Shown here piece after piece: positions 4,727-31,697 of a stretch of DNA of 64,000 nucleotides. This DNA is from Abyssibacter profundi (GTDB lineage Bacteria > Pseudomonadota > Gammaproteobacteria > Nevskiales > OUC007): the NCBI RefSeq assembly GCF_003151135.1, contig NZ_QEQK01000010.1, positions 62,001 to 126,000 of the forward strand. The letters run 5' to 3'. The translations under genes were made by a program, and so were the position numbers. The stretch's first letter is position 1, and every line of letters begins with the position of its first letter. The notes below the pieces were generated by a model. That model worked only from the letters and a program-made list of their open reading frames with translations. It was not told the DNA's origin and made no database searches.

Positions 4727-4791
4727 ATTGGACAATGCCCCGATGACCCGGCGCGCGTAGGCTCGATCCAATGCCCCTCAGGATGCCCGAG

Positions 4792-8142: not shown

Positions 8143-9129
8143 ATGCTGACCGTCCACACGTCCCACCTCAACACGCCAACCTTGCTGGACAGCCCGGATG
8201 TCATGGCGGTCGTGGATTTTGCACAAACCCCGGGGCCGCGCCCCGAGGATCCCCGCCAGATGGTCACCCCGTTGGGCAGTCAGGCCAATCTACGCGAGGT
8301 CTGGACCACGTCCTCGGGCCCCGTGACTTCGGGCCAGACCGGACGCATCCAGTTCGTTCGCAGCGGCACCGAAACCATCGGTACGCTGGTGCTCGAAGAC
8401 GCCGGGCAGGCCATCGAAACCCTGGCCTACCGTGCCTACACAGAGCTGCTGACATGGCTGGATGCCCAGCCCCATCAACATCTCTGGCGGGTCTGGAATT
8501 TCCTGGCCGACATCAACATCGGTGATGGCGACCAGGAACGGTATCGCCTGTTCAGCGTGGGCCGCCTGCGCGCGCTGCGGGAGTCTGCCGTGCCGGATCG
8601 CGCCTTGCCGCCTGCCACGGCCATCGGATGCCAGGCGCCCTTGGTTTATCTCATGTTCATCGCAGGGGGACAGCCGTGCCAACCGGTCGAAAACCCGCGA
8701 CAACTGTCCGCCTATCGCTATCCACGCCGGTACGGACCTGCCAGCCCGTCCTTTGCGCGCGCAGCCAGGGTCGATGCGGGGTCACTCATCGTCTCCGGCA
8801 CGGCCAGCATTGTCGGCCATGAGACCCAGCATCCGGGCGATTGGGCACGGCAGCTGGACGAAACCCACCGCAATCTCGAAGCACTGACCGCCCACGCCGG
8901 TGTGGAGGCCGCGCCCCGAGCACTACGCGCCTATCTGCGGCCCGAGGTCCCACTGGGGCCTGTTGTCGAGCGCATCCGCGCACGCTGGGGTGAGCATCTC
9001 GATGTGATCCCGCTCGTCGGCGAGATCTGCCGCACCGACCTGATGCTGGAAATCGAGGGTGTCTGGCCATTGTCGGCCCACACCACCGCTGACCGCAGCG
9101 CGGCTGCATCACGCGCCGCGGAGGTCTGA
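8143..9129 (+). CDS. xanB2: Chorismatase (FkbO/Hyg5/XanB2 family)
   Basis: 328 aa. Conserved blocks are RVWNFLADINIGDGDQERY (about 116-134), FSVGR (137-141), PATAIGC (157-163), PVENPRQLSAYRYPRRYGP (181-199) and VSGTASIVGHE (217-227). The family converts chorismate to pyruvate plus a hydroxybenzoate or dihydroxycyclohexadiene acid; XanB2 yields 3- and 4-hydroxybenzoate. No tyrosine/histidine ammonia-lyase was found in the locus, so this enzyme probably supplies the aryl starter. Whether the product is 3-HBA, 4-HBA or both cannot be fixed by eye. It is convergent with the next gene, with 7 bases between stops. Confidence 0.88.
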   Translation: MLTVHTSHLNTPTLLDSPDVMAVVDFAQTPGPRPEDPRQMVTPLGSQANLREVWTTSSGPVTSGQTGRIQFVRSGTETIGTLVLEDAGQAIETLAYRAYTELLTWLDAQPHQHLWRVWNFLADINIGDGDQERYRLFSVGRLRALRESAVPDRALPPATAIGCQAPLVYLMFIAGGQPCQPVENPRQLSAYRYPRRYGPASPSFARAARVDAGSLIVSGTASIVGHETQHPGDWARQLDETHRNLEALTAHAGVEAAPRALRAYLRPEVPLGPVVERIRARWGEHLDVIPLVGEICRTDLMLEIEGVWPLSAHTTADRSAAASRAAEV

Positions 9130-12693: not shown

Positions 12694-15017
12694 CGCACCC
12701 TCAACCAACCTGCCCGCCACAACCCAAGCGTTGAGACAAAGGCGACCACAACACCGCACACCACCGTGGCACCGAACTCGGCCAGGGCCGGTGTCGCGCT
12801 CAGACCCAGCAGGCCGAATGCCAGCAACGTGGTCAGCATGGAGAGCACGATGGCGACCAGCGTGCGCTGGCGGTCGCGCACCGTCTCCGCAGCAAAGACG
12901 GCGTAGTCGATGGCCAGGCCCAGCACCAGCAGCAGCGCGAACAGACGAAACACGCTGAATCCCGCCTGCGCCCAGCCACACAGTCCAAGCGTGACCGCGA
13001 CCGCCAGGCCAGGTGGCACGGCGACGACCGCTGCCCGCAGCAGGCCGTACCGCAGCACCACGATCAGGCCGGCAACCACGGCCGCGAACAGCAGCACCCG
13101 CGTCGCATCCCTGCGCGCCGCCGCCAGACCGGCTTCGGCCTGCGCCACCGTGTCCAACCATTGCAGATCAAGACCAGCCTTTCGCTGCCGGTTCACCATC
13201 TGCTGCAACCTCGGCAGGTCGCTGACGCCCCCCAGGCGCAGGAGCGCGCCCCAACCCTGATCCAGAGGTCGAATCAGTCCCGCGTGCGGCGTTGCTGCGG
13301 TCAAGGTCTGCCAGCGCTCGAATGTCAGCGGCCGGCTCGCATGAAACGCGGCGCGACGTGCATCCACCCACTGTGATGGGGCTTGCAGCCGGGCCGCCAG
13401 GCGATCCAGGGCGGCGCCAGGCGCATAGAGCGTTGCTGCCATCGCGGCGTGGGAAGCCTGCTGCCGCCCGAGCGAGGGCAGCGACCGGCCAGCCTGTATC
13501 ACCGTCGTTACCACCCCATCGCCGCGCAACCGATCCAGGGCCGGGCCCACCTGCTCCAACGCCCGTAGCAGGGACTCTTGGTCGTCGGCACGCAGCACCA
13601 ACATTTGCGACGCCTCCACCCCGCCGACCAGCGCCTGCACGCGCCCGGCTTCGGCCAGCAATGCGGGCGCGCTGTAGTACATCGCGCGCAAGTCATCATT
13701 GGGGGCCAGCCGTAGCAGTCCGGTCATGGCCACAGCAGCGGCGAGCGTGCCCAGCAGCAGCCCCCAGCGCGGCTTGGAGCGCCGGCCTGTCAGCAGCCAG
13801 TCGGCGAGTCGCATGGCCGCGGGCCGCGGCTGCCACCGGTCCAGCCGTGGCCAGTAGGCCAGCAGAGCGAAGACCGTGACATACGCACCGGACAGCCCGA
13901 CCACTGAAAAAACGGCGACCTGCTGGAGACTTTGAAACGGCGCCAGCAACAGCCCGGCAAACGCGATGCATGTGGTCGCCCAGCCCAGCGTGACCCCCGG
14001 CCGAATGGCGCGCACCCGCGCCCGCGCATCCCCCTGGGCCAGCAACAAATGAAACGCGTAGTCCACGGCCACCCCGATCAGGGTGGCACCGAATACCAGC
14101 GCGATCAGGTGCAAGGTATCGAAGACCGTCACCACAGCGGCCAGCCCCAGCAACAGGCCGGAGCCGACGCTCAACGCGGTTAGCAGCAGCGGCGCCGGGT
14201 GCAGGAACAACCAGCCAAGCAAGACTCCGATCGCGAGCAGCGACACCGTTCCAATCCGGCGCATCTCCGACTGCGAACGCTGGGCGGCCGTGTCGGCATG
14301 CCGGCTGACACTGAGCTCCAGCAGTTGCACGCCAGGGGCGGCGACAGCGAGGGTGGCTTTCAGCGCGTCCAGCGCATCCACCGTGGTGGCCGCGGCCGCC
14401 AGGCCAAACCCACCAGCAGACGAGCGTAACCGCAGCACGCCCCAATCGCGGCCATCACCACGAACAACGGGCAGCCCGTCAATCCAATCAACATCGCCAG
14501 CCGGCCAGCGACTCGCAGCGAAACGCCCGAGGGTTCCGAACAGGTCTTCGGCCACGCCGTAGCCGCCCAAGCCACCGGTGGGCCCGTGCAGACGCCGCAA
14601 GGCCCGATCAGCCCAGGCATCCGCGCTCTGCTGCCGCAGGTCCGCGAGGTCGGCCGTGGTCAGCAAGTGCCCGGCATGTGGCCGCAAGGCCGGATCGGCC
14701 CAAAGCGCCGCAGGGGGTTGCATGGGCTGGAGCAGGGCTTGGCTTGCAAGCCAGCGGTCCGCAGCCTGAATGGCCTGACGCAGCCCATCGCGCCGCGGGT
14801 GACCGATCAGCAACAGCGTCTGGTCCAGCGATGCTTCGACGATGTCATCGACCCAGGCATCCAACTCGGAGTCGGCAGTCGACCCGCCAAAGGCGGCACG
14901 GATATCCGTTTCGAGCGCTAGGCCACGGTGGCCCGCGACGACGAGCAGCCCCGCGGCCACACTCATGAGCACCCCCCAGGCCCAACGGCAAACGCGTTGG
15001 CCGGCAGGCCTAGTCAA
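12690..15017 (-). CDS. MMPL/RND-family exporter (ApeM/XanK-like)
   Basis: 775 aa with two symmetric halves, each a transmembrane helix, a large extracytoplasmic domain and a bundle of about five helices (for example LLAIGVLLGWLFLHPAPLLL and VLLFAAVVAGLIVVLRYGLL). GVAVDYAFHLLL and GLAIDYAVFAAE are the paired conserved helix-4 motifs (G-x-x-x-D-Y) of the MMPL group. It probably moves the polyene lipid out of the inner membrane using the proton gradient. It overlaps the LolA-like gene by 8 bases and the DUF3261 gene by 4. Confidence 0.88.
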   Translation of the reverse strand: MTRPAGQRVCRWAWGVLMSVAAGLLVVAGHRGLALETDIRAAFGGSTADSELDAWVDDIVEASLDQTLLLIGHPRRDGLRQAIQAADRWLASQALLQPMQPPAALWADPALRPHAGHLLTTADLADLRQQSADAWADRALRRLHGPTGGLGGYGVAEDLFGTLGRFAASRWPAGDVDWIDGLPVVRGDGRDWGVLRLRSSAGGFGLAAAATTVDALDALKATLAVAAPGVQLLELSVSRHADTAAQRSQSEMRRIGTVSLLAIGVLLGWLFLHPAPLLLTALSVGSGLLLGLAAVVTVFDTLHLIALVFGATLIGVAVDYAFHLLLAQGDARARVRAIRPGVTLGWATTCIAFAGLLLAPFQSLQQVAVFSVVGLSGAYVTVFALLAYWPRLDRWQPRPAAMRLADWLLTGRRSKPRWGLLLGTLAAAVAMTGLLRLAPNDDLRAMYYSAPALLAEAGRVQALVGGVEASQMLVLRADDQESLLRALEQVGPALDRLRGDGVVTTVIQAGRSLPSLGRQQASHAAMAATLYAPGAALDRLAARLQAPSQWVDARRAAFHASRPLTFERWQTLTAATPHAGLIRPLDQGWGALLRLGGVSDLPRLQQMVNRQRKAGLDLQWLDTVAQAEAGLAAARRDATRVLLFAAVVAGLIVVLRYGLLRAAVVAVPPGLAVAVTLGLCGWAQAGFSVFRLFALLLVLGLAIDYAVFAAETVRDRQRTLVAIVLSMLTTLLAFGLLGLSATPALAEFGATVVCGVVVAFVSTLGLWRAGWLRVR

Positions 15018-15645
15018 CCAGCACGCCCCGTTCGCTTTCGGTGAGTGGACGATCCGGAGCCGGTGTCAGTTCGATCTCGGTCGCCTCGCCATTGACGTGC
15101 TTGATTCGGATCTCGCGCACGAATTGATCCCCACGCAACCGAACCTGCTGGATCACGGACGCCACGGCCGCGTCTCGCGGCGACAGCTGCACCGTCCAGC
15201 CCTGATCGTCGAGTTGGACCATCACATCAAACATGGCGTCTAGGCGTCGAAACCGGCCCGCCACCCAATCTGTCAGCAACTGCCCGGTCAGGCGCTGCGC
15301 CGTCGCCCCAAGCTCGACAGGCGCCCAGGCTCCCTGGCCCACCCGCTCGTCCACGCGACCCTGCCGTACCCGCAAGGCGGACTCCGCTGGCGACAACACA
15401 TGCCAGTACAGCCCGGCATCCGACAACAGGGCAAACCGCCCGGTGGACAGCAGCGGGAACGGTAAGGAGTCAATCTCGCGGCGCTGGGTGAACGTCCCCG
15501 TGAGCTCCTCGGCCGCGCGAACCCGGGCCTCGACCTCAGCGATGCCTGACGCGGCCGCATCGGCCTGCGCCGCACCCGCCGCGCTGCCAAGTACCCAGAT
15601 CACCCCGAGCAACCGCGCCCCATGCATCACACGCCGCCAGGGCAT
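15010..15645 (-). CDS. LolA-like outer-membrane carrier protein
   Basis: 211 aa with a signal peptide (LLGVIWVLGSAAGAAQADA). The LolA fold is suggested by LTGTFTQRREIDSLPFPLLSTGRFALL, an unclosed barrel that binds lipid, and by YWHVLSPAESALRVRQGRV. It would shuttle the polyene lipid across the periplasm between the MMPL exporter and the outer membrane. Its ATG shares one base with the stop of the ligase gene (TGATG). Confidence 0.82.
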   Translation of the reverse strand: MPWRRVMHGARLLGVIWVLGSAAGAAQADAAASGIAEVEARVRAAEELTGTFTQRREIDSLPFPLLSTGRFALLSDAGLYWHVLSPAESALRVRQGRVDERVGQGAWAPVELGATAQRLTGQLLTDWVAGRFRRLDAMFDVMVQLDDQGWTVQLSPRDAAVASVIQQVRLRGDQFVREIRIKHVNGEATEIELTPAPDRPLTESERGVLVD

Positions 15646-16898
15646 TAGTCAGCCTCTCCCTGCTCCAGCAAGACGCGAATCGCCGCAGCCGTCGGCTTGC
15701 CGGTCGCTGTCTTGGGAATCGCGCTCACCCGACGCAATGGTCGGGGGATAAACACCGGGTCGATGCGCTCGGCCAGCCAGCGACGAATCTGCGAACTCGA
15801 CGGTGATCCGACGACCACCGCGCCGACCCGTCCCGCGCCGGACAGGCCCACCACAGCCGCATCTTCCACGCCGGGGATGGCCAGTAACTGCCGCGTCAGC
15901 GCCTGCCTGGAATAGCGCTTGCCGGCCACCTTGATCATGTCGTCCGGCCGACCAAGCAGCCGAAACCCTGTGGCATTCACGACCTCGATCTGGTCCTGGA
16001 CCTGAGCCTGCTGCGGCAGATGCTCGCAGACCAATCCGCCGTCCACCGCATCGAACCGGATGCCGGGAAACAACTGCCAGATCGCGTCGCGGCAGGGCTC
16101 ACGACTGGCAATCGCCCCGGTTTCGGTGCTGCCGTAAATCTCGACCACCCGACACCCCAGCGTTGATTCGAGCGACCGCGCGAGCTCGGCTGACAGCGGC
16201 GCTGACGCTGAGATCACAACATCGATGGGTGGCAGCACAACCTGGCTCTTCAGCACGGCCTGGAGATGCACCGGCGTGCTCACCAGCACTCGCGGCCCAT
16301 CCACGGCCTCCAGCGCAGACGCAACATCCGCCGGAAAAAATGGTCGGCCCGCATGAACACGGTATCGGCCAGCCAGTACCGTCAGCACCGTCAGCTCAAG
16401 CCCGTACATGTGCTGCGGCGGCACGGTGGCCACCAACGCAGCATGCTGTGCCAGACCATGCCGGTCCAGACCGGCGACCAGACACCGCGCATCCCCCAGC
16501 AGGTTTGCCCAAGTCTTGCTCACGGGCTTTGGGGCGCCGGTGCTGCCCGAGGTAAAGCCCACGGTGGCCAGCTGCGCATCGGGCAGCTTATCCAGGCCCT
16601 GGGCGTCTCGGGTGCCCGTCCTGGGGAGCGGCGCATCCACATCCCGACAAGCCTGGGCGTCCGGGTACCGCGCGAGCACCGCCTCAATCGCCGCGGCAGA
16701 ATCCGCGCTGGGCAGCAGACAGGGCTGACCACGCCGCGCCGCAGCCAGCAACACGGTGGCGAAATCCATGCGGTCCACGCACAGATTGAGCAGTGGTCGG
16801 GCTGGATCGGCCCCTGCCAACGCGGCCGCTCTCGCCCACAGCACCGCAGGTTCCACCACCGATTCGCGACGACTTTGCCAGCCAGCGACCACGGTCAT
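15645..16898 (-). CDS. AMP-dependent aryl-CoA/ACP ligase (ApeH/XanA2-like)
   Basis: 417 aa, short for an ANL enzyme (500+ typical) but normal for the aryl-polyene ligases. The P-loop is TSGSTGAPK near residue 115, and EIYGSTETGA and a C-terminal IPKTATGKPT (Lys) loop are present. It probably activates 3- or 4-hydroxybenzoate as the adenylate and loads it on CoA or ACP; XanA2 in Xanthomonas is a 3-hydroxybenzoate CoA ligase. The neighbouring chorismatase supports a hydroxybenzoate substrate. Start ATG overlaps the stop of the membrane protein (ATGA). Confidence 0.82.
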   Translation of the reverse strand: MTVVAGWQSRRESVVEPAVLWARAAALAGADPARPLLNLCVDRMDFATVLLAAARRGQPCLLPSADSAAAIEAVLARYPDAQACRDVDAPLPRTGTRDAQGLDKLPDAQLATVGFTSGSTGAPKPVSKTWANLLGDARCLVAGLDRHGLAQHAALVATVPPQHMYGLELTVLTVLAGRYRVHAGRPFFPADVASALEAVDGPRVLVSTPVHLQAVLKSQVVLPPIDVVISASAPLSAELARSLESTLGCRVVEIYGSTETGAIASREPCRDAIWQLFPGIRFDAVDGGLVCEHLPQQAQVQDQIEVVNATGFRLLGRPDDMIKVAGKRYSRQALTRQLLAIPGVEDAAVVGLSGAGRVGAVVVGSPSSSQIRRWLAERIDPVFIPRPLRRVSAIPKTATGKPTAAAIRVLLEQGEAD

Positions 16899-17496: not shown

Positions 17497-17778
17497 TCAG
17501 CCGTCGCGGTTTGCGGAGACGAAATCCGTCAATGAGCGCAAGGACCGGAAAATTTCCTTGTTGCGGGCATCGTCGGCACGGATGTGCACGCCGTACTTCT
17601 GCGCAATCGCCTGGGCGATCTCCAGCGCGTCGATCGAATCGAGCCCCAGGCCCTCCTCGTCAGCACCGAACAGGGGCGCCTCAGGCGCGATATCCTCCGG
17701 CGCTTCGTCTTCCAGATTCAGCGTGTCGACGAGCAGGGAGGCCATGTCCAGTTCGGACTCGGAAAGGGAACTCTGCAT
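17497..17778 (-). CDS. Acyl carrier protein (second, aryl polyene)
   Basis: 93 aa. Phosphopantetheine attachment site LGLDSID, Ser48; the first 40 residues are unusually acidic. It is the first gene of the ten-gene minus-strand operon ACP, membrane protein, ligase, LolA, MMPL, DUF3261, dehydratase, reductase, ketosynthase, secreted protein. By position it is the ApeF-like ACP that may accept the activated aryl starter, whereas the other ACP carries elongation. That split is inferred. Confidence 0.88.
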   Translation of the reverse strand: MQSSLSESELDMASLLVDTLNLEDEAPEDIAPEAPLFGADEEGLGLDSIDALEIAQAIAQKYGVHIRADDARNKEIFRSLRSLTDFVSANRDG

Positions 17779-17851: not shown

Positions 17852-18316
17852 ATGATCGAACACGAGACTTTGCTCACAGTGCCTTTTCACGATGCCGACA
17901 TGATGGGCGTCACCTGGCATGGCCACTATGTGCGCTATCTGGAGATCGCCCGCTGTGAGCTGCTGGAGCAGGTGGGCTACACCTACCTGGACATGTACGC
18001 CTCGGGCTTTGCCTGGCCCGTCGTCGATCTCAAGCTGCGCTACGCCCGCGGCTGCACCTTTGGCGACCGGCTGCGCATCCGGGTCCAGGTCGAGGAAACC
18101 GAGTTCCGACTCAAGCTGTTCTACCGCATCGAGCAGGCCGATACCGGCGAATTGCTCACCAAGGCCTGGACCACACAGGTCGCGGTGGACGCCAAGACGG
18201 GTGAGATGATCTACCCCTCGCCCACCGCGCTAACGGAGAAGATGACGGCTTACGCAGCGACGCTGGGCACCGAACCGACGACAGCAGGCGGCGCGAAGAA
18301 ATCCGTGCGACCCTAA
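17852..18316 (+). CDS. Acyl-CoA/ACP thioesterase (4HBT, ApeK-like)
   Basis: 154 aa hot-dog thioesterase. The motif HDADMMGVTWHGHYVRYLE (residues 13-31) is the 4-hydroxybenzoyl-CoA thioesterase signature, with the conserved acidic residue at Asp14 or Asp16. It probably hydrolyses off-pathway or finished thioesters. It is transcribed divergently from the ten-gene operon, has no clear Shine-Dalgarno, and ends in a 4-base overlap with the convergent flavoprotein gene. Confidence 0.82.
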   Translation: MIEHETLLTVPFHDADMMGVTWHGHYVRYLEIARCELLEQVGYTYLDMYASGFAWPVVDLKLRYARGCTFGDRLRIRVQVEETEFRLKLFYRIEQADTGELLTKAWTTQVAVDAKTGEMIYPSPTALTEKMTAYAATLGTEPTTAGGAKKSVRP

Positions 18317-19611
18317 TTCACCACCGCGCGCACACGGGCGCGTCGCCGTAGCCACTCACGCACGGCGCTCACCGGCTTCAGGCAGCTGAAGAAGTAGTAA
18401 AGCCCACGGAAGAACATCAGCCGCGGCCGCACGCCGTTGTCGCGCTCCACGTCACCCGCCAGCAGGGATGTCACCGCTTCCTGCACGCGCCAGGGGTTGC
18501 CCGGATTCGTGAACAAATGGCGGATGCCCGGCGAGTTGAAGCGGGCGATCATCCAGGTGAAGTCCTTGACGCTTCGCTTTTGCACCCGCTCGAACTCGTC
18601 CCGCAGGGCCGCGGCTTCGGGCGCCCCGCGGAGTTCGGCATCGACATAAGCCGCACCGCGCAGCGCTCCGCGCATGCCCAGCAGCACGCCGCTGGAAAAG
18701 ACCGGGTCGACGAACGCCCAGGCATCACCGACAAGAATCGCGCCGGGAAAGCACATCTGCGAACACTGGTAGGAGTAGTTGCCGGCGGCCCGCACCTCGC
18801 CAACCAGTTCGGCATGCGCCATGCGCTGACGAACATGCGGCGGGGTCAGGGCGATGGTGTCGGCCAGAAACGCCTCGGTGCTGCCGCGGCGCGTCTTGAG
18901 ATAAGCCGGGCTGCACACCGCGCCGACGCTCATCAGCCCGTCCGGCAAAGGAATAAACCAGATCCAGCCATGCTCGAACCAGCACACACTGATCAAACCG
19001 GCCTCGGGGCCCGGGTTGCGCGGCACATGACGAAAATGGCCGAAGATGGCCGCGCTGGCATGACGCATGTTCTTGCGCTTGATGCCGAACTGCCCGGCCA
19101 GCAGGGTGTCGCGGCCGGAGGCATCCACCACGTAGCGGGCCTGCCAGCACTGGGGCTCGCCGCCCTCTGGCGTGACCGTCAACGCGGCGCCCTGGCCCTC
19201 ATCGGCGAAGGTCACACCTGTCACCTTGGTCTGCTCGAAGATCTGGGCGCCGCGGCGCCCGGCATTCCGCAGCAGCACCTCATCCAGCTGGTCGCGACGG
19301 ACCTGATAGGCGTCGGGAAAATTCTTGTCCAGGGCATCGCGGAAATAAAACCGGTGCGGCGGGTTGTCGGGATTGACGTCGTAGAACTCCGCACCGGGTT
19401 TGTAGACGCCGATACGCTTGACCTCGTCCAGCACCCCGATGCGCTCGAATACCGGCTGATTCATCGGCAACAGGGATTCGCCAATATGAAAGCGTGGATG
19501 CTTCTCCTTTTCGAACAAAACCACGTTCCAGCCTTTCTCGGCCAACGCGTAGGCAGTGGTGGAACCCGCCGGACCGCCACCGATCACAGCGACGTCACAG
19601 GTCTGCGTCAT
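18313..19611 (-). CDS. Flavin-dependent halogenase-like oxidoreductase
   Basis: 432 aa from ATG 19611, preceded by GGAG at 7 bases; a TTG at 19623 would overlap that Shine-Dalgarno. FAD-binding VIGGGPAGSTTA at 9-20, the PRFHIGESLLP motif at 39-49, and WIWFIP at 216-221, which matches the WxWxIP signature of flavin-dependent halogenases. A C-terminal RRRARVR tail is basic. Xanthomonadin clusters carry a related gene, and their pigments can be brominated. Halogenation of the aryl ring is likely but not certain, since non-halogenating relatives also keep these motifs. Confidence 0.78.
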   Translation of the reverse strand: MTQTCDVAVIGGGPAGSTTAYALAEKGWNVVLFEKEKHPRFHIGESLLPMNQPVFERIGVLDEVKRIGVYKPGAEFYDVNPDNPPHRFYFRDALDKNFPDAYQVRRDQLDEVLLRNAGRRGAQIFEQTKVTGVTFADEGQGAALTVTPEGGEPQCWQARYVVDASGRDTLLAGQFGIKRKNMRHASAAIFGHFRHVPRNPGPEAGLISVCWFEHGWIWFIPLPDGLMSVGAVCSPAYLKTRRGSTEAFLADTIALTPPHVRQRMAHAELVGEVRAAGNYSYQCSQMCFPGAILVGDAWAFVDPVFSSGVLLGMRGALRGAAYVDAELRGAPEAAALRDEFERVQKRSVKDFTWMIARFNSPGIRHLFTNPGNPWRVQEAVTSLLAGDVERDNGVRPRLMFFRGLYYFFSCLKPVSAVREWLRRRARVRAVVN

Positions 19612-19638
19612 GCAAATCTCCAAGCTCGACAGGGCCGC

Positions 19639-20460
19639 TCAGGTTTCACGATGAGCGTGCCGGTGTTGTTCAAGAAACGCTTCTAAATGGGCGGTGAGCC
19701 GACGCGCTGCCACCGCGCGGCTGACGCCCGCGTCCAGAAAGGCTGCAATATCGATCGGCTCACCCACCCGGAGCGAAATATGAAATTTACGCGAGGGCAC
19801 CGAGTACCAGGGCAGGCCCTTGGTCAGCGTGCTGGGCTGGCAATCAATGATGATCGGCCGCAACGGCTTGCCGGCACGCAACGCGATATTCGCCGTCCCG
19901 CGCTGCAGCCGGACCGGCTCGCCGGGTCGGGTCCGGGTGCCTTCCGGAAAGATAATCAGGCTGTGGTTGGCAGCCAGCACCTCGGCGCAGCGGTCCACCA
20001 GCCGGGCTGAATCCACGTTGGGCACATAGCCAGCCGATCGCACCGGGCCGGCCGTGAACGGGTTTCGGAACAGCGCGCTCTTGACCACGCAGCTGGTCTG
20101 CGGAACCTGCGACATCACCATCACGACATCGATCAGGGTCGGGTGATTCGCAATGAGCAATTGCCCGGGCTCGCGGAGCTTGTCGGCGCCCTCAATCGAA
20201 TAACTCATCACCCGAAGGCAGCGCATGATTTCCACGAACACGCGCATCGCGCAGTGAATGACGAACTGCATCCGGTGATGCACGCGCGCCCGATTCCAGG
20301 TCAGCAGCCAGACCAGCGGAAACACCACCAACCCCATCAGGATGCCCCCGATCCCGAACAGCAGGAACGACAGGCCGGTCCCCGCAATACGCCAGACACG
20401 ATTCAGCGCCGCGCCCACCGGGGCCACCCAGTCCGGCAGCGCATCCGACGAGGTATTCAT
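19639..20460 (-). CDS. PlsC-type 1-acylglycerol-phosphate acyltransferase
   Basis: 273 aa. HX4D motif in NHPTLID (near residue 105) and the substrate-binding FPEGTRTRPGEPV (near 174). Two N-terminal hydrophobic segments (LSFLLFGIGGILMGLVVFPL) anchor it in the inner membrane. In aryl-polyene clusters the equivalent (ApeD-like) is thought to attach an acyl chain during lipid assembly. It overlaps the chain-length-factor stop (ATGA) and precedes the halogenase-like gene by 27 bases. Confidence 0.82.
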   Translation of the reverse strand: MNTSSDALPDWVAPVGAALNRVWRIAGTGLSFLLFGIGGILMGLVVFPLVWLLTWNRARVHHRMQFVIHCAMRVFVEIMRCLRVMSYSIEGADKLREPGQLLIANHPTLIDVVMVMSQVPQTSCVVKSALFRNPFTAGPVRSAGYVPNVDSARLVDRCAEVLAANHSLIIFPEGTRTRPGEPVRLQRGTANIALRAGKPLRPIIIDCQPSTLTKGLPWYSVPSRKFHISLRVGEPIDIAAFLDAGVSRAVAARRLTAHLEAFLEQHRHAHRET

Positions 20461-23455: not shown

Positions 23456-23803
23456 CTAGCGGCGCTTCAGATCACGCAGGCGTTGCGCGCGTCGCGCCTC
23501 ACGCAGTTCCGCCTGACGCGCTTGTAGCGCCCGCAATTCATCCGGTGACAGCTGCCCGTCTTGATCGAGGTCGATCTCATCGAAGCGAGTGTGGATAATC
23601 TTCGGCAAGCCGTTGCGCACTTCTTCGCGGGACAGGCTACGACTGCCGTCCACATCCGCCTGCCGAAACTGCGCCTGCCGATCCGGCGACGACTCGGCAC
23701 CGGCGAGGCCGGACACCAGCATCGCCACAACACCCGCCACGGACAGGGCCTTCGCGCCACCGGCGCTCCACCGTTGATTGTTGATGAACAATTCCCTGAC
23801 CAT
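23456..23803 (-). CDS. Secreted EF-hand protein
   Basis: 115 aa. A hydrophobic signal segment ALSVAGVVAMLVSGLAGA follows about 17 N-terminal residues. Two EF-hand-like calcium loops are visible, ADVDGSRSLSREE and IDLDQDGQLSPDE, followed by a basic, Arg-rich tail (REARRAQRLRDLKRR). The ATG at 23803 overlaps the start of the divergent ABC-transporter gene by 20 bases, so the true start may be an internal TTG or GTG. It is likely a periplasmic calcium-binding protein; partner unknown. Confidence 0.68.
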   Translation of the reverse strand: MVRELFINNQRWSAGGAKALSVAGVVAMLVSGLAGAESSPDRQAQFRQADVDGSRSLSREEVRNGLPKIIHTRFDEIDLDQDGQLSPDELRALQARQAELREARRAQRLRDLKRR

Positions 23804-24707
23804 TCAAGGCGTTAAGAAAACCTATCCGCATTCTGACACAGCGGCCCTGGCGGGAATCGACCTGCACATCCCGGCGGGCTGTGCCTTTGGACTGATCGGG
23901 CCCAATGGAGCGGGCAAATCAACGCTCATCCGCCTGTTACTGGGCCTGCTGAAACCCGATGCCGGCCGCATGCGAATCGGCGATCACGATCTCGCCACCG
24001 CTTTACCCGCAGCCCGACGCATCTGCGGGCTGGCACCGCAGGACCCGGGGTTTTTTCCGCTGCTGACCGTTGCCGAGAATCTACGCACCTTTGGCGCGGC
24101 GGCCGGGCTGCAGGCCGCGGCCCTGGAGCAGGCGGTGGACTCGGCCATCGAGAGCACCGAACTGGGTCGCTTTGCCCATCGCCGCGCCGACCAGCTCTCG
24201 GGCGGTGTGCGTCAACGCCTGAATGTGTCACTGGCCCTGCTGGGCCAGCCCCCGATTCTGCTGCTGGACGAGCCCACCGCCGGCGTTGATGCCGAATCCC
24301 GCCGCCTGATCCTGGACGTGCTCAGGCAAGAGAACCAGCGAGGCACGACGCTGATCTACACCAGCCACTACCTGACCGAGGTCGAACAGCTTTGCGACCG
24401 CGTCGCTCTGATCGACCATGGCCAGGTCCGCTTTGAAGGCCAGTTGCAGGCAGCGCTGGCCCATGCTGCCCGGCTGTTGGTCGTCCGTCTGGGTTCGCCA
24501 CCACCGGCCGCCATGCTGGCCCGCTGGCGTTCGCGCTGGCCCGACGGCGATATCGAACACGACACCCTCACGCTGGAGACAGACCAACCCATCGACGCGC
24601 TGGGACAGCTCGCCCAGGACGGCGTGACCCTCCGCAGCATCGAATACGGCACCTCCAGCCTGGAAGCCGCGTACTTCCACATGCGCGCGGAGGTGGAGCT
24701 GACATGA
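23784..24707 (+). CDS. ABC transporter ATP-binding protein
   Basis: 307 aa from ATG 23784. Walker A GPNGAGKST, signature LSGGVRQR, Walker B ILLLDEPTAGVD and H-loop YTSHYLTEVE are all present. The order and the C-terminal extension (about 90 aa after the NBD) are those of DrrA/ABC-2 type drug and lipid exporters. It overlaps the permease gene (ATGA) and heads a five-gene operon with an ACP and two ketosynthase-like genes, so the cargo is probably the pigment or its resorcinol part. Confidence 0.88.
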   Translation: MNNSLTIQGVKKTYPHSDTAALAGIDLHIPAGCAFGLIGPNGAGKSTLIRLLLGLLKPDAGRMRIGDHDLATALPAARRICGLAPQDPGFFPLLTVAENLRTFGAAAGLQAAALEQAVDSAIESTELGRFAHRRADQLSGGVRQRLNVSLALLGQPPILLLDEPTAGVDAESRRLILDVLRQENQRGTTLIYTSHYLTEVEQLCDRVALIDHGQVRFEGQLQAALAHAARLLVVRLGSPPPAAMLARWRSRWPDGDIEHDTLTLETDQPIDALGQLAQDGVTLRSIEYGTSSLEAAYFHMRAEVELT

Positions 24708-25900
24708 CGAACCGCCTGCCACTACTGACCGCGCTCATGCACAAGGAACTGCGGGGCCTGCTGCGCGATCCACAGGGCCTGCTCGTACTGTTCCTGATGC
24801 CAACGATTTTCATCCTGGTGATGTCGCTTGCGCTGCGCGATGTCATGAGCGCCCACCAGAGCACACAGCAGCGCCTGCAGTGGCACGACGCAGACCAGAG
24901 TTACTTTTCATTGGAGTTGCGTGAGCGCCTGGGTCAGAGTGAGCGCCTGCACATCGAGACCATCGGGCCAACGGATGAGACGCTGACCCCGCCGTATTTC
25001 GGCCGTCTCGAAATCGCACCCGGTCTGGCTGATCGGCTGCACCCCGACAATCGGGAGCCGCTGGTTCGAGTCACGCTGGACCCCGCCTATCCCGTCGCCG
25101 GCTCCAGCCTGTTCCTAACAGAGCTCAAAGGTGCACTGATCAGCCTGCGGGCCGAATACATCACCGAGGACCTCTTCGGCGCGCCCGAAGACGAGGCTGC
25201 ACTGGTGCGACGCGCCACGCGCCCCGACGCCGTCCCGGTCACCGTGAACTACCCGGGCGCAGCCGAACGCTCCGAGACGCTCCCGGATGCCACCCAGCAA
25301 AGCGTCCCGGCCTGGATCGTGTTTGCGATGTTTTTCGTGGTGTTCCCGCTGTCGACCAGCATTCTGGGCGAACGGCGCGAGGGCACCCTGCAACGTCTGG
25401 CGCTGCTCAACGCCTCGCATCAAAGCGTGCTCGCAGCCAAGGTGCCGGTGTACCTCGGCGTCACGGTACTGCAGGCCAGTCTGATGCTCGCGATGGGCGT
25501 TTGGGTGGTCCCCTTGCTGGGCGGGGAGGCGCTGCAGCTCTCGGGCCGCTGGCTGGCATTGCTCCCGATTACCGTCGCAACCGGGGCCGCCGCGCTGGGC
25601 GTGGCGTTGCTCATCGCGGTACTGGCCCGGACCTCTGCCCAGGCCACGACCATCGGCGGGGCGGTCAATCTGGTCCTCGGTGCGCTGGGCGGCGTCATGG
25701 TCCCGACCCTGGTCATGCCGGAGGAGCTGCAGCTGGCCGGGCTGATCTCTCCGATGTCCTGGGCATTGGATGGCTATTGGGACATCATTCTGCGCCATAC
25801 CCCCGTGCAATCCACGCTACCCGAGTGCTTGGCCCTGCTGGCCCTCGGCGCTTCCACCTATGCCATGGCCGCCTGGCGGCTGCGCCAAGATTTCTCATGA
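24704..25900 (+). CDS. ABC-2 type transporter permease
   Basis: 398 aa. One N-terminal helix (GLLVLFLMPTIFILVMSLAL), an extracytoplasmic domain of about 150 residues, then five helices starting with AWIVFAMFFVVFPLSTSIL and ending near SPMSWALDGYWDIIL. The ERREGTLQRL loop after the second helix is typical of ABC-2 permeases. It pairs with the preceding ATPase as a homodimeric exporter. Its stop overlaps the ACP start (ATGA), which is unusual coupling of a transporter to a biosynthetic gene. Confidence 0.88.
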   Translation: MTNRLPLLTALMHKELRGLLRDPQGLLVLFLMPTIFILVMSLALRDVMSAHQSTQQRLQWHDADQSYFSLELRERLGQSERLHIETIGPTDETLTPPYFGRLEIAPGLADRLHPDNREPLVRVTLDPAYPVAGSSLFLTELKGALISLRAEYITEDLFGAPEDEAALVRRATRPDAVPVTVNYPGAAERSETLPDATQQSVPAWIVFAMFFVVFPLSTSILGERREGTLQRLALLNASHQSVLAAKVPVYLGVTVLQASLMLAMGVWVVPLLGGEALQLSGRWLALLPITVATGAAALGVALLIAVLARTSAQATTIGGAVNLVLGALGGVMVPTLVMPEELQLAGLISPMSWALDGYWDIILRHTPVQSTLPECLALLALGASTYAMAAWRLRQDFS

Positions 25901-26163
25901 AAGGCTCGCAAGACACTGCACTTAAGCTAGATCTCAAGACCTTGATCATCGAGGAAACAGAGCAGGAACTCGCCGCCGAGGACCTGACTGACGACGAACC
26001 GTTATTCGGCCCGGATGCCCGCCTGGAGCTGGATTCGATCGACGGCCTGCAGATCTCCATGGCCCTGCAGGTGGCTTACGGCGTGCGGATCACCGACCCC
26101 AAGGAGCTGATGCGCGTCATGCAGAGCATCAACACCCTGGCGGATCACCTGCAGCCGGATTGA
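25897..26163 (+). CDS. Acyl carrier protein (DarC-like, third ACP)
   Basis: 88 aa from ATG 25897. Phosphopantetheine site LELDSIDG with Ser47; the C-terminal ADHLQPD ends the ACP fold. It sits between the ABC permease and a ketosynthase and faces the darA-darB operon, so it probably serves dialkylresorcinol synthesis (DarC role). Assignment to DAR instead of polyene synthesis is by position only. Confidence 0.85.
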   Translation: MKGSQDTALKLDLKTLIIEETEQELAAEDLTDDEPLFGPDARLELDSIDGLQISMALQVAYGVRITDPKELMRVMQSINTLADHLQPD

Positions 26164-26164
26164 C

Positions 26165-27280
26165 GTGCAGACCACATCTATCCGTAGCCTGGCCATGCAG
26201 GCCGCTCCGGGCGCGACACCGCCCGAGCGCCTGGAGGTTCTGCGCAGCGGCTTACCCCCGCAGGCCATCGGGGTCTCGGATCAAACGGGTCAACGCTGGC
26301 CCTACATGTCGCGTCGTCGGCCGGACACCACCGCATCGTTTTGGGCCGACATGGCCGCCGTTGCGGAGGACGCCCTCAATGCCGCTGACCTGTCGGACCA
26401 CGCGCGTGCAACCCTGCCGGTACTGCTCGGGAGTACCTGCCTGGACATGCCGGACCTTGAGGCTGCGCTGCATTCCCAGCCCCAAGCCCCGGCCCTGATG
26501 AACGCACACTGCGGCCGGACACTGGATCAGCTGGCCACCGAGCTGGGGCTGGGTGGCCCGCAGTTCACCCTGTCGACCGCTTGCTCCTCAGCGGCCAATG
26601 CCCTGCTCCACGCCCGGCGTCTGCTAGTGGCCGGCCGGGCGGAGCATGTCCTGGTCATCGGCACCGAGTTCTACAACCGATTGACCCTCTCCGGCTTCGC
26701 GTCGTTGCTGCTGCTCAGCCCGGACACATTCCGGCCGTTCGACGCTGACCGCGAGGGCCTGATACTCGGGGAGGCCGTCGGTGCCATGGTGTTGTCGCGC
26801 CAGCCGCGTGACCGGGGCGACCTTGGCCGCCTGCTGGGTGGCGCCACCGGCTGCGACCCCAGCAGCCCGACCAACTCCAGCCCCGAGTTTCTGGTCAGGA
26901 TCATGCAGCAGGCACTCGATGACGCCGGTCTCACCACGGACGACTTGCTGGCTATTAAGGCGCATGGCACCGGCACGCCCAGCAATGACGCTGCCGAAGG
27001 TGCGGCCCTGGATCGCCTGTTCGGCAACCGTCATCCGGTCACATCACTCAAGCCCTATTTCGGCCACACCCTGGGCGCCTGCGGTTTGGTGGAGCTTGCC
27101 GGTTTGCTCGAGGCCTGGTCAGCGGGTTTTCTGCCCGCGACACCCGGTTTCCGGACCCTGGGTTCAGGCGAGCAAATGACGCCGATCACCCAGCCTCATC
27201 CGCTGCCAGCGGAAGGCGCTGTGCTCTGCAACAGCTTCGGTTTCGGTGGCAACACCACCAGCCTGGTCGTTGCACGATGA
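26165..27280 (+). CDS. Beta-ketoacyl-ACP synthase (dialkylresorcinol branch)
   Basis: 371 aa from GTG 26165, one base after the ACP stop; ATG 26195 is an alternative. Active-site Cys140 in STACSSAANA, His in AHGTGTPSND and in YFGHTLGACG, so it is a complete FabF-type enzyme, on the short side. The N-terminal 30 residues are weakly conserved. It likely makes or extends one of the acyl chains condensed by DarB. It is translationally coupled to the next ketosynthase-like gene (ATGA). Confidence 0.85.
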   Translation: MQTTSIRSLAMQAAPGATPPERLEVLRSGLPPQAIGVSDQTGQRWPYMSRRRPDTTASFWADMAAVAEDALNAADLSDHARATLPVLLGSTCLDMPDLEAALHSQPQAPALMNAHCGRTLDQLATELGLGGPQFTLSTACSSAANALLHARRLLVAGRAEHVLVIGTEFYNRLTLSGFASLLLLSPDTFRPFDADREGLILGEAVGAMVLSRQPRDRGDLGRLLGGATGCDPSSPTNSSPEFLVRIMQQALDDAGLTTDDLLAIKAHGTGTPSNDAAEGAALDRLFGNRHPVTSLKPYFGHTLGACGLVELAGLLEAWSAGFLPATPGFRTLGSGEQMTPITQPHPLPAEGAVLCNSFGFGGNTTSLVVAR

Positions 27281-28113
27281 ACGCGCTGCGCATTCAGGCC
27301 AGCCATTCCATGGAATGGCCGGCAGCCGAGACTCCGACCAATCTCGCCGAAACCCTGCGTGAACTGACAGGCCGGCCCGGCCCCCGTCGCGTGAGCCGGC
27401 TCGTGCGGCTGGCTCTGCTCGGTGCACGACAGTGTCTGGGCAACCGCCAGCTGCCGGCAGACAGCGCGGTGCTGCTGACCACCCGGACCGGTCCAGTCGC
27501 GGACACCGTGACCCTGTTGCAACAAGGCGCAGCCGGTCTGCCCCTGCCCCCCGTTCAGTTCGTCAACGTTTCCAGCAACATGGTGAGTTACTACCTGGCC
27601 GCCGAACTGGGCGTGCAAGGCAGCAATCAAGTCATCCTGTCACGCGAGCATGCCTGGTTTGGCTTGCTGGAAACGGCGCAACTGACACTGCCGCCCGGTA
27701 CCCCCGTGCTTCTGGGCGCCGTCGAAGAGAATCTGTGGCCGCTGGCGGAACATCGGCAGCGTCTCGGGCTTGCCGACGAGGCACCACTAGGCGACAGCAG
27801 CCACTGGCTGCTGGTCGAGACAGGCGAGGGGCCCGGGCCCTGCATCACGGCATTGGAGCGCCACCCAGATGATCAGGCCATGCGCGCCCGTCTGCGCCGG
27901 TGCCCACCCGAGACCACTCTGACCCTGACAGCCAACGCGCGTCAGGCCTTACCCGAACGACCGCCCTGCCCATCCGCGGCCCCTAGCCAGCTACAGAATG
28001 GCTTACCGGATGCGCACGCGGTCATCCATTGGCTGGCCGAACTCACTGGCCCGGGCTGGTGGCTGGACCGCAGCCCCCGCGGGCACTGGGTGATCATCGC
28101 CGCCCAAGCTTAG
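27277..28113 (+). CDS. Ketosynthase-like protein lacking the catalytic Cys
   Basis: 278 aa. Weak thiolase-fold resemblance: VNVSSNMVSYYLAAELGVQGSN then ILSREHAWFGLLETAQLTL and VLLGAVEENLW follow the layout of a ketosynthase N-terminal half. The position of the catalytic Cys is occupied by HAW. It may be a chain-length-factor-like partner for the preceding ketosynthase. The last 80 residues match nothing I recognise. It closes the five-gene plus operon and is convergent with the BtrH gene. Confidence 0.55.
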   Translation: MNALRIQASHSMEWPAAETPTNLAETLRELTGRPGPRRVSRLVRLALLGARQCLGNRQLPADSAVLLTTRTGPVADTVTLLQQGAAGLPLPPVQFVNVSSNMVSYYLAAELGVQGSNQVILSREHAWFGLLETAQLTLPPGTPVLLGAVEENLWPLAEHRQRLGLADEAPLGDSSHWLLVETGEGPGPCITALERHPDDQAMRARLRRCPPETTLTLTANARQALPERPPCPSAAPSQLQNGLPDAHAVIHWLAELTGPGWWLDRSPRGHWVIIAAQA

Positions 28114-28163: not shown

Positions 28164-29192
28164 TCAATCCAGGTGAGCCAGTGACCGCCTAGGCTTACGC
28201 GAAACTGCCAGCACATCGCGGAAGGCCTGCGCCTCCAGCGTGGCGACCCGCGCCAACGCCTCGATCGGGCCTGCCAGTTCCACGGCCTGCCGACTGCGGA
28301 TTTGTCGCGCGCAGGCCACGGCAAACTGCCGCCAGGCATCCCCGCAAGCCGTCAGGCTCTGACCGACCTCGGCCAGATCGGCACGATTCAACCGATCCGC
28401 CATCTCATGCAGGTAGGCGGCATACATGAATCGGAAGCCGCCGCCTCCGGTGCCAATCTCTTCCTGCATACGGACGATCTGGCCCAGGTAGAGCCGCTGA
28501 CGCGCATCGTCCGAACGCCGGGGGAGGCGTTCCAGCTGACGCCCCAGCAGACGAATGCCCCTGATACCGACAAACGGCAACGGCGCGCGCAGCATCATGT
28601 TGGCCGTCTTGCGCACACTGCGGGCGAAGGCCGTGGACCAGTCGATCGTTCCGGGCACCGAGACCGGCCAGTACATCAGCCCCTTGGGTGCCAGGGCACC
28701 CCGCACGAACCGCGCCCGCTGCAGCGCCTCGCGCGGGCAGCGCTGTGGCGCCTCGAAGACCGGATCACTGACCAGGTAGTCATCGCCGTCACGGCCGTAC
28801 ACGATCAGATTGTGTGCGTTGAAGTGAAAACGCATGGCGTCCGGAAAATAGGGCAGCCAGTACACAGAGGCCTGAATACCCACGGCGCGCCCCTGTTCCA
28901 GGGCGGCGTCCAGCGCCGCCATCCCGGCTGCGGGATGACGAAATCGCTGCTGCGCCCAGCGCACGCCGATGCGCCGCGCCAGGCCACGGTAAATCCGCCC
29001 GGGCGGCATGCGGTAACTGGTCAGCGGCAGTTCGTTAATGCGCACGAACGGCAGATGCACGAAGGTCAGCCCGCTGGACAGGCCGAGCACCTCGGCTTCC
29101 GACAGGGTCAGGCCGGCAGCTTCCAGCAGAATCGAACTAACACCGGTTTCGCAGTGGCCTGCATGACGGTGCGTAATGGGTTGTAGATTCAT
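28164..29192 (-). CDS. BtrH N-terminal domain protein, putative acyl-ACP transferase
   Basis: 342 aa. The first 150 residues follow the BtrH pattern: HAGHCETGVSSILLEAAG with candidate nucleophile Cys14, SEAEVLGLSSGLTF, and AHNLIVYGRDGDDYLVSDP giving His127 and Asp143 for a Cys-His-Asp triad. In butirosin synthesis BtrH moves an acyl group from an ACP to an aminoglycoside amine. The C-terminal half is helical. It is coupled (ATGA) to the HTH-like gene in the darB operon. It may esterify the polyene acid with the dialkylresorcinol; this is inferred. Confidence 0.75.
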   Translation of the reverse strand: MNLQPITHRHAGHCETGVSSILLEAAGLTLSEAEVLGLSSGLTFVHLPFVRINELPLTSYRMPPGRIYRGLARRIGVRWAQQRFRHPAAGMAALDAALEQGRAVGIQASVYWLPYFPDAMRFHFNAHNLIVYGRDGDDYLVSDPVFEAPQRCPREALQRARFVRGALAPKGLMYWPVSVPGTIDWSTAFARSVRKTANMMLRAPLPFVGIRGIRLLGRQLERLPRRSDDARQRLYLGQIVRMQEEIGTGGGGFRFMYAAYLHEMADRLNRADLAEVGQSLTACGDAWRQFAVACARQIRSRQAVELAGPIEALARVATLEAQAFRDVLAVSRKPRRSLAHLD

Positions 29193-29596
29193 ACGGGTGG
29201 CTCCGCCTCGGGCAGCAACTGCGCCACATCACAACCCAGCGCATCCGCGTATCGCTGCCTTAGCGCAGGACTCAGACGCCGATAACCCTTCGCGCGAAGA
29301 TGACGCTTCACCCGCCAGGCCCACAGCCCGGTGGCCTGCGCCAGCGTGGGGATATCCATGCGGCGCAGGTACATGATCACCTCCAGGGGCGACCCCTGCC
29401 CGGCGGCGCAGCGCGCGCGGGCCGCCTGGGCCTGGGCTTCGAACGTGGCAACCGCCAGCGTGTTCGCGGCCTCCTCCACCGCCCAGCCAGAAGACGCCGC
29501 CACGACATACCCGCCGTCGGCATCCTGGGCATAAACTGCCCGCCGCTCTTTCGCATAGCCGGGACTGTCGTCCTGCGGCACCTCCTCAAGCTTCAT
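29189..29596 (-). CDS. Small HTH-like protein of the resorcinol operon
   Basis: 135 aa from ATG 29596, which overlaps the DarB stop (ATGA); the frame to 29662 is a shadow. The C-terminal 60 residues look like an XRE-type helix-turn-helix (MDIPTLAQATGLWAWRVKRHL, then LSPALRQRYADALG). The N-terminal half is an alanine-rich helix. Its own stop overlaps the BtrH start. I do not recognise a named family. It could be a regulator or an accessory protein; tight coupling to both enzymes argues for the latter. Confidence 0.62.
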   Translation of the reverse strand: MKLEEVPQDDSPGYAKERRAVYAQDADGGYVVAASSGWAVEEAANTLAVATFEAQAQAARARCAAGQGSPLEVIMYLRRMDIPTLAQATGLWAWRVKRHLRAKGYRRLSPALRQRYADALGCDVAQLLPEAEPPV

Positions 29597-30750
29597 GCCC
29601 CCTCCACCACCGTCAGCAGCATGTATGCGGCCGAGAAGCGCCCGCTCTCGGGCACAAAGCACAGCACCCGCTGACCCGGCGCCAGCGAGGTTTCGCGTTG
29701 CAGCGCATCCAGCATCAGATAGATCGACGCCGAGCCGACATTGCCGACCTCCGGCAGATTGGTGAACCAGCGGTCTTCAGGAATTTCGAACCCGATTCGG
29801 CGTAAGCCCTGCTGGATGCGCGGGCGGAAGTATTCGGAAGAGTAGTGCGGCAGAAACCAGTCAATCGCATCGGCGGCCAGCGGTCGACGTGCCAGCACCT
29901 CTGGCAACGCGCGCTCGATCGTCAACGCGACGATGTGCTCGTTGAGCTGACGCACGTCCTGCTGGAAGGTCATCGCCCCGGAGGCCGACCAGGCGTCGGC
30001 GGGCAGCTCCCGCCAGCCCTGCAAGCCGCCCTCGGCCTGCTTGCGGGCACCGGCATACATGCAGGCCGCCTGTTCATGAGCGTAGGAGCGCAGCTCAATC
30101 CAGTCCAGCCGGAACGACAGTCCGTGTTCCGCAGGCTGCCGACCCAGCAGCAGTGCGCCGGCGCCATCAGACAGCATCCAGCGCAGGAACACGCCATCGA
30201 ATGCCAGCTCCGGCCGCCGCTCCATCGCTGACAGTTGCGCCTCGTACTGCGCCGTGAACTGCTCGGATCGCATGAAGGTTGAGGCGGTTTCCGAACCCGT
30301 GGCCACCGCCGTGCTGGCCTGTCCGGCGGACACGGTCAGGGCGGCGTAGCGCAGTGCCGCCACCCCGGAGCAGCAAATTCCGGCTAGGGAGACAGCCTCG
30401 CAGCTGGCCGCCTCAGGCAATTCACCATGAACCATGACCCCGTGGCCCGGCGCCATCTGATCTGGCGAGGAGGTGCCGCAGGCCAACACATCCAGGTCGG
30501 GCAACGAGAAGTCCGCGCCGACCAGGCCTTTCACGGCCTCGGCAGTGAGCCGGGCATTGGTATGCGTGGGCTGGCGGGTGGCCGGATCCACCGCGTAGTA
30601 GCGCTGCCGGATCCCGTTGCGGCTGAGCACGATGCGCCGCTCGCGTGCGGGCCGATCTCCGATCTGACCCAGCACGGACTCCATGTCGTCGTTAGATACC
30701 GGCGCATTCGGTAGCACGGCACTGGTGCCGCGAATAAAAACGTCTTGCAA
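29593..30750 (-). CDS. darB: DarB-like ketosynthase III for dialkylresorcinol
   Basis: 385 aa. KAS III catalytic residues are Cys127 in GICCSG, His302 in FLPHYSSEYF and Asn337 in VGNVGSAS. The N-terminal block SNDDMESVLGQIG...SRNGIRQRYY is characteristic of the StlD/DarB-type enzymes as I know them. DarB condenses a beta-ketoacyl thioester with an enoyl thioester and cyclises to a cyclohexanedione. DarA then aromatises it. It follows darA by 11 bases in the same operon. Confidence 0.82.
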   Translation of the reverse strand: MQDVFIRGTSAVLPNAPVSNDDMESVLGQIGDRPARERRIVLSRNGIRQRYYAVDPATRQPTHTNARLTAEAVKGLVGADFSLPDLDVLACGTSSPDQMAPGHGVMVHGELPEAASCEAVSLAGICCSGVAALRYAALTVSAGQASTAVATGSETASTFMRSEQFTAQYEAQLSAMERRPELAFDGVFLRWMLSDGAGALLLGRQPAEHGLSFRLDWIELRSYAHEQAACMYAGARKQAEGGLQGWRELPADAWSASGAMTFQQDVRQLNEHIVALTIERALPEVLARRPLAADAIDWFLPHYSSEYFRPRIQQGLRRIGFEIPEDRWFTNLPEVGNVGSASIYLMLDALQRETSLAPGQRVLCFVPESGRFSAAYMLLTVVEGA

Positions 30751-30761
30751 AAGTTCCCCCG

Positions 30762-31697
30762 TCAGGATGCGGTCGCGCCCGGCTGGCGCTCAAGCTCGGC
30801 CGCAGCGGCCTGCACCCGTTGTGGCGCCAGCCGGGCGAGCAATCGCCGCAGCAATAGCGACACCGGCACGACCGTCATGATCATCAGCAATAGGAATGCC
30901 ATATAGGCGACCAGCACCACGCGTCGCAGCGGTGTTCCCGGTGCTCCGCAGGCACGCAGCAAGCGGCCCCAGATGCGGAAACTGCGTTTGCCGATGCGTT
31001 CGCTACCGGCCAGCGCAGGATCGACACGCAAGGCGTCTGTCCCCTCCAGCATCGACCGGCCCGCCTGCCATTGCGTGTCTTCCAGCGCCTGCCGGATGCG
31101 CAGACCATACCGCGATACACCCTGGATCTGTTCTTCGGTCAGCCCCGCGCGCGGCAGCCCCCAGAACGCCTCCCGCCGCCCGGTCAGCACCCAGCGCGGC
31201 GTGGTGATGAATGTGGCCAGTGCCGGGCCCGGATCGGTCAGCGCCAGGTGGTCAGTGGGCCTGGCATCGGCCGCCCGCAGCAGTTCCAGCACATCTCGAT
31301 GCGCCTCTACCCACATATTGCGGCAGGTGGTCACCGTGACCACCGGCGTCTTCGCCAGCAACTGCCGGGCCTGCGGGCTGCGCAACCAGCTGGCAATCGC
31401 GGGCGCCGGCGACAGGAACCACACCGGGTAGGCCAAGATGACGAGGTCATAGGACGTGGCACAGGACCAGGGCTGCAAGTTGACGGGTGACTGCGCCACC
31501 GTCTCCGGAAAACTGTCCAGGAACTGCCAGAAAGGCCAGGGCCAGGGCGCTGGCTCCAGGGCGGCCAGCTCCAGCTCGTCGATCGCATGGCCGGCGTCGC
31601 GCAGCGGTGCGGTCAAGGCATCCGCTACAGCGCGCGTCTGCCCCGACTGCGAAAAATGCACCAGCAATATGGATCGGCGCACGGTATCGGCAGCCAT
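30762..31697 (-). CDS. darA: DarA-like dialkylresorcinol-condensing enzyme
   Basis: 311 aa. Flavodoxin-like start ILLVHFSQSGQTRAV (FMN phosphate loop SQSGQT), then the DarA-characteristic PWPFWQFLDSFPE, YDLVILAYPVWFLSPAPA and VTVTTCRNMWVEAH. A C-terminal transmembrane segment VVLVAYMAFLLLMIM anchors it. In known DAR pathways DarA oxidises the DarB product to the resorcinol. It is the first gene of the four-gene minus operon darA, darB, HTH-like, BtrH-like. Confidence 0.85.
   Translation of the reverse strand: MAADTVRRSILLVHFSQSGQTRAVADALTAPLRDAGHAIDELELAALEPAPWPWPFWQFLDSFPETVAQSPVNLQPWSCATSYDLVILAYPVWFLSPAPAIASWLRSPQARQLLAKTPVVTVTTCRNMWVEAHRDVLELLRAADARPTDHLALTDPGPALATFITTPRWVLTGRREAFWGLPRAGLTEEQIQGVSRYGLRIRQALEDTQWQAGRSMLEGTDALRVDPALAGSERIGKRSFRIWGRLLRACGAPGTPLRRVVLVAYMAFLLLMIMTVVPVSLLLRRLLARLAPQRVQAAAAELERQPGATAS

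Follow-up and report, generated by a model that had tools for sequence, protein, structure and literature searches.

DarH, a BtrH-related candidate acyltransferase for joining polyene and resorcinol in a pigment cluster of Abyssibacter profundi

In a stretch of 64,000 nucleotides from Abyssibacter profundi (the window), the gene darH encodes what is probably an ACP-dependent transferase that moves a polyene acyl chain onto a resorcinol. Its family, its fold, an invariant catalytic triad, its place in a coupled operon and its co-occurrence with both halves of the pathway are supported by the evidence below. Flexirubins and arcuflavins, pigments that are widespread among bacteria, consist of two halves built separately. 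For arcuflavin, the polyene-resorcinol ester was predicted from mass spectra, and the 2014 Azoarcus paper left the joining enzyme open and unnamed (PMC3949708); the authors working on Chitinophaga guessed at a ligase, proposing a 'ligase-like enzyme (FlxW)' (PMC3992019). No functional study linking DarH or DarG to flexirubins or dialkylresorcinols was found in the openly searchable literature. DarH stands out as a candidate for this step by its triad, by membership of a fold family that includes carrier-protein-dependent enzymes and by its strict co-occurrence pattern; if the assignment is true, a fold of amide-forming enzymes would extend to phenolic esters.

The darH gene and the dar block

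The darH reading frame starts with ATG and encodes 342 amino acids on the minus strand (28164-29192), the plus strand of the same interval being interrupted by stops. The earlier note had placed a BtrH-domain gene at exactly this position, leaving the strand unstated, and the domain is confirmed: Pfam BtrH_N covers residues 13-144 (E 5e-44, 150.1 bits) and is followed in tandem by DUF4872 (residues 155-326, E 2e-51, 174.6 bits), both above the gathering score. With NF053550, the equivalog model 'BtrH-related acyltransferase DarH' of NCBIfam release 20.0, the protein scores 444.1 bits (cut-off 300), residues 6-327 covering positions 2-324 of the 325 in the model. The gene also lies with darA, darB and darG, the company in which this family expects it. 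Judged by sequence, the DarH of the window is an ordinary member of an already named family; the idea of an acyltransferase is contained in the NCBIfam name and hence is not new. The dar block and darH itself comprise the following features:

23778-25900, plus strand: ABC transporter ATPase and permease (ABC-2 permease domains; conserved synteny)
25897-26163, plus strand: acyl carrier protein, candidate polyene donor with the motif LDSID (PP-binding, 25.7 bits; ACP position of Azoarcus darC)
26165-27280, plus strand: ketosynthase in the position of Azoarcus darJ (family matches; related loci)
27277-28113, plus strand: chain-length-factor-like protein in the position of Azoarcus darK (no family match; conserved next to KS2 in related loci)
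28164-29192, minus strand: darH, BtrH-related acyltransferase (Pfam BtrH_N and DUF4872; NCBIfam NF053550)
29189-29596, minus strand: darG, 135 amino acids, DarG family dialkylresorcinol biosynthesis protein with a predicted C-terminal Cro/C1-type HTH fold (NF053536, 143 bits, cut-off 70; model and fold search)
29593-30750, minus strand: darB, StlD/DarB ketosynthase forming the resorcinol ring (NF005293, 544 bits, cut-off 450)
30762-31697, minus strand: darA, flavodoxin-like dialkylresorcinol aromatase (weak Flavodoxin_2; syntenic homologues beside darB)

The genes run in the order darA, an 11 bp gap, darB, darG and darH. The stop and start codons overlap as ATGA between darB and darG (29593-29596) and again between darG and darH (29189-29192). 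Translational coupling of darH into a darA-darB operon, as claimed earlier, is borne out by these overlaps, but the link passes through darG, which had gone unmentioned. No family in Pfam or NCBIfam scores above its cut-off for DarA; the gene is assigned, putatively, by its position and by an identity of 24-67% to genes beside darB in related loci. DarG, which tracks darH and sits between it and darB, is modelled as a short beta-beta-alpha part joined to an HTH domain of the Cro/C1 type, which resembles repressors and the HTH of HppE (Z 9-11); it may serve as regulator, as partner of DarH or as accessory to an enzyme. The ABC genes are preceded by a small reading frame (23456-23803) that weakly resembles an XopAW-type model for calcium binding (28.5 bits, cut-off 120); the resemblance probably reflects no more than a segment like an EF-hand.

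The arcuflavin cluster of Azoarcus BH72 contains darA, darB, darD, darE, an ABC ATPase, two unrelated genes, an ABC permease, an ACP, a ketosynthase and a hypothetical protein (PMC3949708), a DAR gene set equal to that of the dar block in the window. The names differ: the 'darH' of the Azoarcus paper is a PilT-domain gene, and the counterpart of darH in the window is darE (azo0290), annotated there as a 'BtrH-like peptidase' (PMC3949708). Like the window gene, azo0290 and its NF053550 relatives have darB, a small protein and ABC genes as neighbours, and comparison of the window DarH with the family and with azo0290 revealed no difference.

Fold and catalytic residues

The AlphaFold2 model of DarH, built on 31 homologues, is confident (pLDDT 87.8, pTM 0.87). 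Searches of solved structures by sequence gave nothing useful, so the link to known folds rests on this model. When the whole chain is compared with the PDB, the best matches are AziU3 (Z 24.9), CtaG (Z 23.8) and CcbD (Z 22), all of which share the full-length two-domain fold over about 292-311 residues. C39 peptidases and phytochelatin synthase match the first domain only (Z about 13). C39 enzymes that process bacteriocins act on double-glycine leader peptides, either fused to an ABC exporter or working alongside one; near darH there is an ABC pair encoded separately.

The triad residues are encoded as follows:

29151-29153, minus strand: Cys14 codon; the residue begins helix 14-25 and is the predicted nucleophile that forms the acyl-enzyme
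28812-28814, minus strand: His127 codon; the residue begins strand 127-135 and is predicted to act as general base
28764-28766, minus strand: Asp143 codon; the residue directly follows strand 138-142 and is predicted to complete the triad

In an alignment of 102 darH proteins all three residues are invariant, so the Cys14-His127-Asp143 pattern had been read correctly in the earlier note. The structure prediction proposed there as a check places Cys14 at the opening of the first helix, His127 at the opening of its strand and Asp143 behind the next one; in the model the triad is thus in papain order and at papain-like positions. His8 and His13 are also essentially invariant, as are two stretches, RFHFNAH and, in the second domain, RMQEEIGTGGGGFR. 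C14, H127 and D143 persist in two remote relatives (23-25% identity), together with H8, H13 and an E-x2-GTGG core. His8 stands six residues before Cys14, presumably in the place usually held by the oxyanion-hole Gln of papain-like enzymes.

AziU3, from azinomycin biosynthesis, is the best full-length match and was crystallised with a partner, AziU2. A candidate role for DarG as the counterpart of AziU2 is unsupported, given that the fold search with DarG returned HTH proteins and no AziU2 among the matches listed. CtaG, from closthioamide biosynthesis, has the same full-length fold at an identity of 11-12%, and its C11, H128 and D144 carry nearly the same numbers as C14, H127 and D143 of DarH; the deposited CtaG structures include the variants C11A, H128A and D144N. 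Its proposed reaction is the transfer of hydroxybenzoate between carrier-bound partners, with beta-alanine on a carrier as the acceptor (PMC6772006). CcbD and LmbD, from lincosamide biosynthesis, have the full-length fold, the catalytic cysteine and, as predicted for DarH, a carrier-protein donor, but differ in their Cys-His-Glu triad and amide product, at 15% identity. CcbD works by a ping-pong mechanism in which the acyl group passes from the carrier protein onto the cysteine and then to an amine, and it docks the carrier protein via Arg312, Arg316 and Arg324 (PMC12945683); its C19S variant was deposited in complex with a carrier-protein domain. Conserved Arg288, Arg296 and Arg301 of DarH lie in or at the end of the modelled helix 271-299, which by analogy may be equivalent to the Arg-bearing helix of CcbD. 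BtrH, from butirosin biosynthesis, is an ACP:aminoglycoside acyltransferase (PMC10318531) with the same BtrH_N domain; its acceptor is an amine, whereas that of DarH is predicted to be a phenol.

A papain-like fold also raises the alternative that DarH is a cysteine thioesterase, serving either to free the polyene acid or to clear wrongly primed ACPs, with the ester made by another enzyme. C39 peptidases, which are kin to this fold, hydrolyse their substrates (PMC10318531), and the label of peptidase given to the Azoarcus counterpart (PMC3949708) leans the same way. The full-length matches to AziU3, CtaG and CcbD, however, stand far above those to the peptidases, which are confined to the first domain. 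Together with the distribution of darH described below, this makes hydrolysis an improbable function. In terms of the model, DarH is the cluster protein that combines a carrier-protein-acyltransferase fold with the right distribution.

The polyene cluster and the type of pigment

The genes for the polyene half lie in the same window:

7118-8044, minus strand: HtrB-like acyltransferase, a rival ester synthase (PF03279)
8143-9129, plus strand: FkbO/Hyg5-like chorismatase of the XanB2/ArcB type, likely source of a hydroxybenzoate starter (PF21168, E 6e-29)
15645-16898, minus strand: ArcT-like AMP-ligase that would activate the starter; no second AMP-ligase was seen among the scanned cluster genes (family matches)
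17497-17778, minus strand: acyl carrier protein (NF006617, 104.7 bits, cut-off 70)
18313-19623, minus strand: FAD-dependent halogenase-like protein (Trp_halogenase, E 1e-26)
19639-20460, minus strand: PlsC-like acyltransferase, a rival ester synthase (PF01553)

The earlier note had assumed a pigment of the flexirubin type. Flexirubin clusters draw their starter from a tyrosine ammonia-lyase, whereas the window has the chorismatase instead; it holds no aromatic ammonia-lyase, and the single PF00221 match of the genome, on another contig, may be a histidine ammonia-lyase. A chorismatase together with one AMP-ligase is common to the window and to the xanthomonadin and arcuflavin pathways. Every component of an arcuflavin-type cluster, namely a XanB2-type chorismatase, an AMP-ligase, polyene genes and a DAR block with a BtrH-like protein, occurs here. 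Because the window holds a chorismatase as starter enzyme and lacks an aromatic ammonia-lyase, its pigment is more likely arcuflavin-like (a xanthomonadin-type polyene plus DAR) than a flexirubin.

Co-occurrence with both halves of the pathway

The distribution of darH was surveyed in 274 genomes of the Gammaproteobacteria, the class of the genome that supplied the window, with PF13723 as marker for aryl polyenes. Above the cut-offs, darH was found in 13 genomes, darB in 16 and the polyene marker in 65. All 13 genomes with darH also contain darB and PF13723, and darH is above cut-off in none of the 49 that have PF13723 without darB; these counts ignore the kinship of the genomes, Fisher values drawn from them are not probabilities of function, and true DAR-only clusters are rare in the sample. 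A thioesterase fits this pattern poorly, for release would be needed in the 49 polyene-only genomes as well. The second sample comprised 178 genomes of the Bacteroidia, the class of a Flavobacterium, with darH in 31, darB in 32 and both in 30. The exception with darH only (G428) is a contig of 4 kb; the others are a contig of 5.5 kb (G432) and a lone darB without darA (G350). In this class PF13723 is a poor marker, found in 28 of the 31 darH genomes with low scores. The distribution shows that darH belongs to genomes holding both pigment halves and that the DAR-plus-polyene package moves as a unit. The co-occurrence ties darH only to this package, which also brings darG, the ABC pair, an ACP and KS/CLF.

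Three gammaproteobacterial genomes (G104, G198 and G221) have darA, darB and the polyene marker without darH and count against the proposed role. Their loci (L116, L117 and L118) consist of a bare darA-darB pair with no darG, darH, ABC genes or ketosynthases adjoining, the polyene marker lying elsewhere in the genome; they are useful natural controls. They bear on a second alternative, in which the ester is made by the PlsC-like or HtrB-like acyltransferase or by an AMP-ligase such as FlxW, and DarH acts elsewhere in the pathway. All three kinds of gene are present in the window, and FlxW was put forward for Chitinophaga (PMC3992019). The PlsC-like and AMP-ligase genes recur in the polyene clusters of G198 and G221 and therefore do not track the darH package. 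Since polyene clusters without darH carry both, these two genes do not explain the link to resorcinol and were rejected as ester synthases. The single AMP-ligase among the scanned cluster genes has a counterpart, ArcT of Azoarcus, that activates the hydroxybenzoate starter (PMC3949708). Overall, this second alternative is about as doubtful as hydrolysis by DarH.

Proposed reaction

Since a heterologous host makes the resorcinol with darA and darB alone (PMC3992019), ring formation does not require darH. DarH would instead be an acyltransferase of papain fold that works on a carrier protein. Cys14, assisted by His127 and Asp143, would take the finished aryl-polyene acyl group from the phosphopantetheine arm of the ACP to give an acyl-enzyme thioester (polyenoyl-S-DarH). 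His127 and Asp143 would then activate the phenol, so that the dialkylresorcinol from DarA and DarB attacks the thioester through one of its phenolic hydroxyls and the ester-linked, arcuflavin-like pigment leaves the enzyme. The acyl-ACP transfer from polyene to resorcinol suggested in the earlier note is thus supported by fold, triad, operon position and co-occurrence, while it is inferred that a polyene on ACP is the donor, that a resorcinol hydroxyl accepts the acyl chain and that an ester results. Against it counts that CcbD, CtaG and BtrH form, or are proposed to form, amides and not phenolic esters. The more specific proposal, that a protein of the BtrH/CcbD fold uses a phenolic hydroxyl as acceptor to make an aryl ester from a carrier-bound polyene, possibly with DarG as obligate partner, has an even chance of being right.

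The amine acceptors of CcbD, CtaG and BtrH, and the ABC transporter conserved beside darH, could also suggest that the acyl chain goes to another acceptor, for example to an amine, to a lipid or to a component of transport. The strict tracking of darB and the ester detected by mass spectrometry in arcuflavin (PMC3949708) point to resorcinol, and a different acceptor is very improbable.

Conservation and variants of the block

A scan of bacterial genomes found 332 stretches encoding darH. Among the best 79 of these 332 loci, the block darA-darB-darG-darH, followed by the ABC ATPase, the ABC permease and ketosynthases, is kept in lineages ranging from Gammaproteobacteria to Bacteroidota; the nearest relative of DarH is that of an Abyssibacter MAG (76% identity), and those of Flavobacteria reach 41-48%. 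The dar block is also present in Galbibacter EGI 63066, a reported flexirubin-type producer (PMC13166967).

Some loci depart from this arrangement. A MAG labelled Syntrophus (L131) carries three copies of darH (4365-5381, 13840-14856 and 15590-16606), two of them with their own darG, and two copies of darB near a possible radical-SAM-like protein. Another genome (G252) has a reading frame of 338 amino acids between darG and darH (L119, 6575-7591). Remote BtrH-type proteins in two further loci (L121, 7089-8105; L122, 7303-8331) score 103-126 bits to DarH and occur in other gene contexts.
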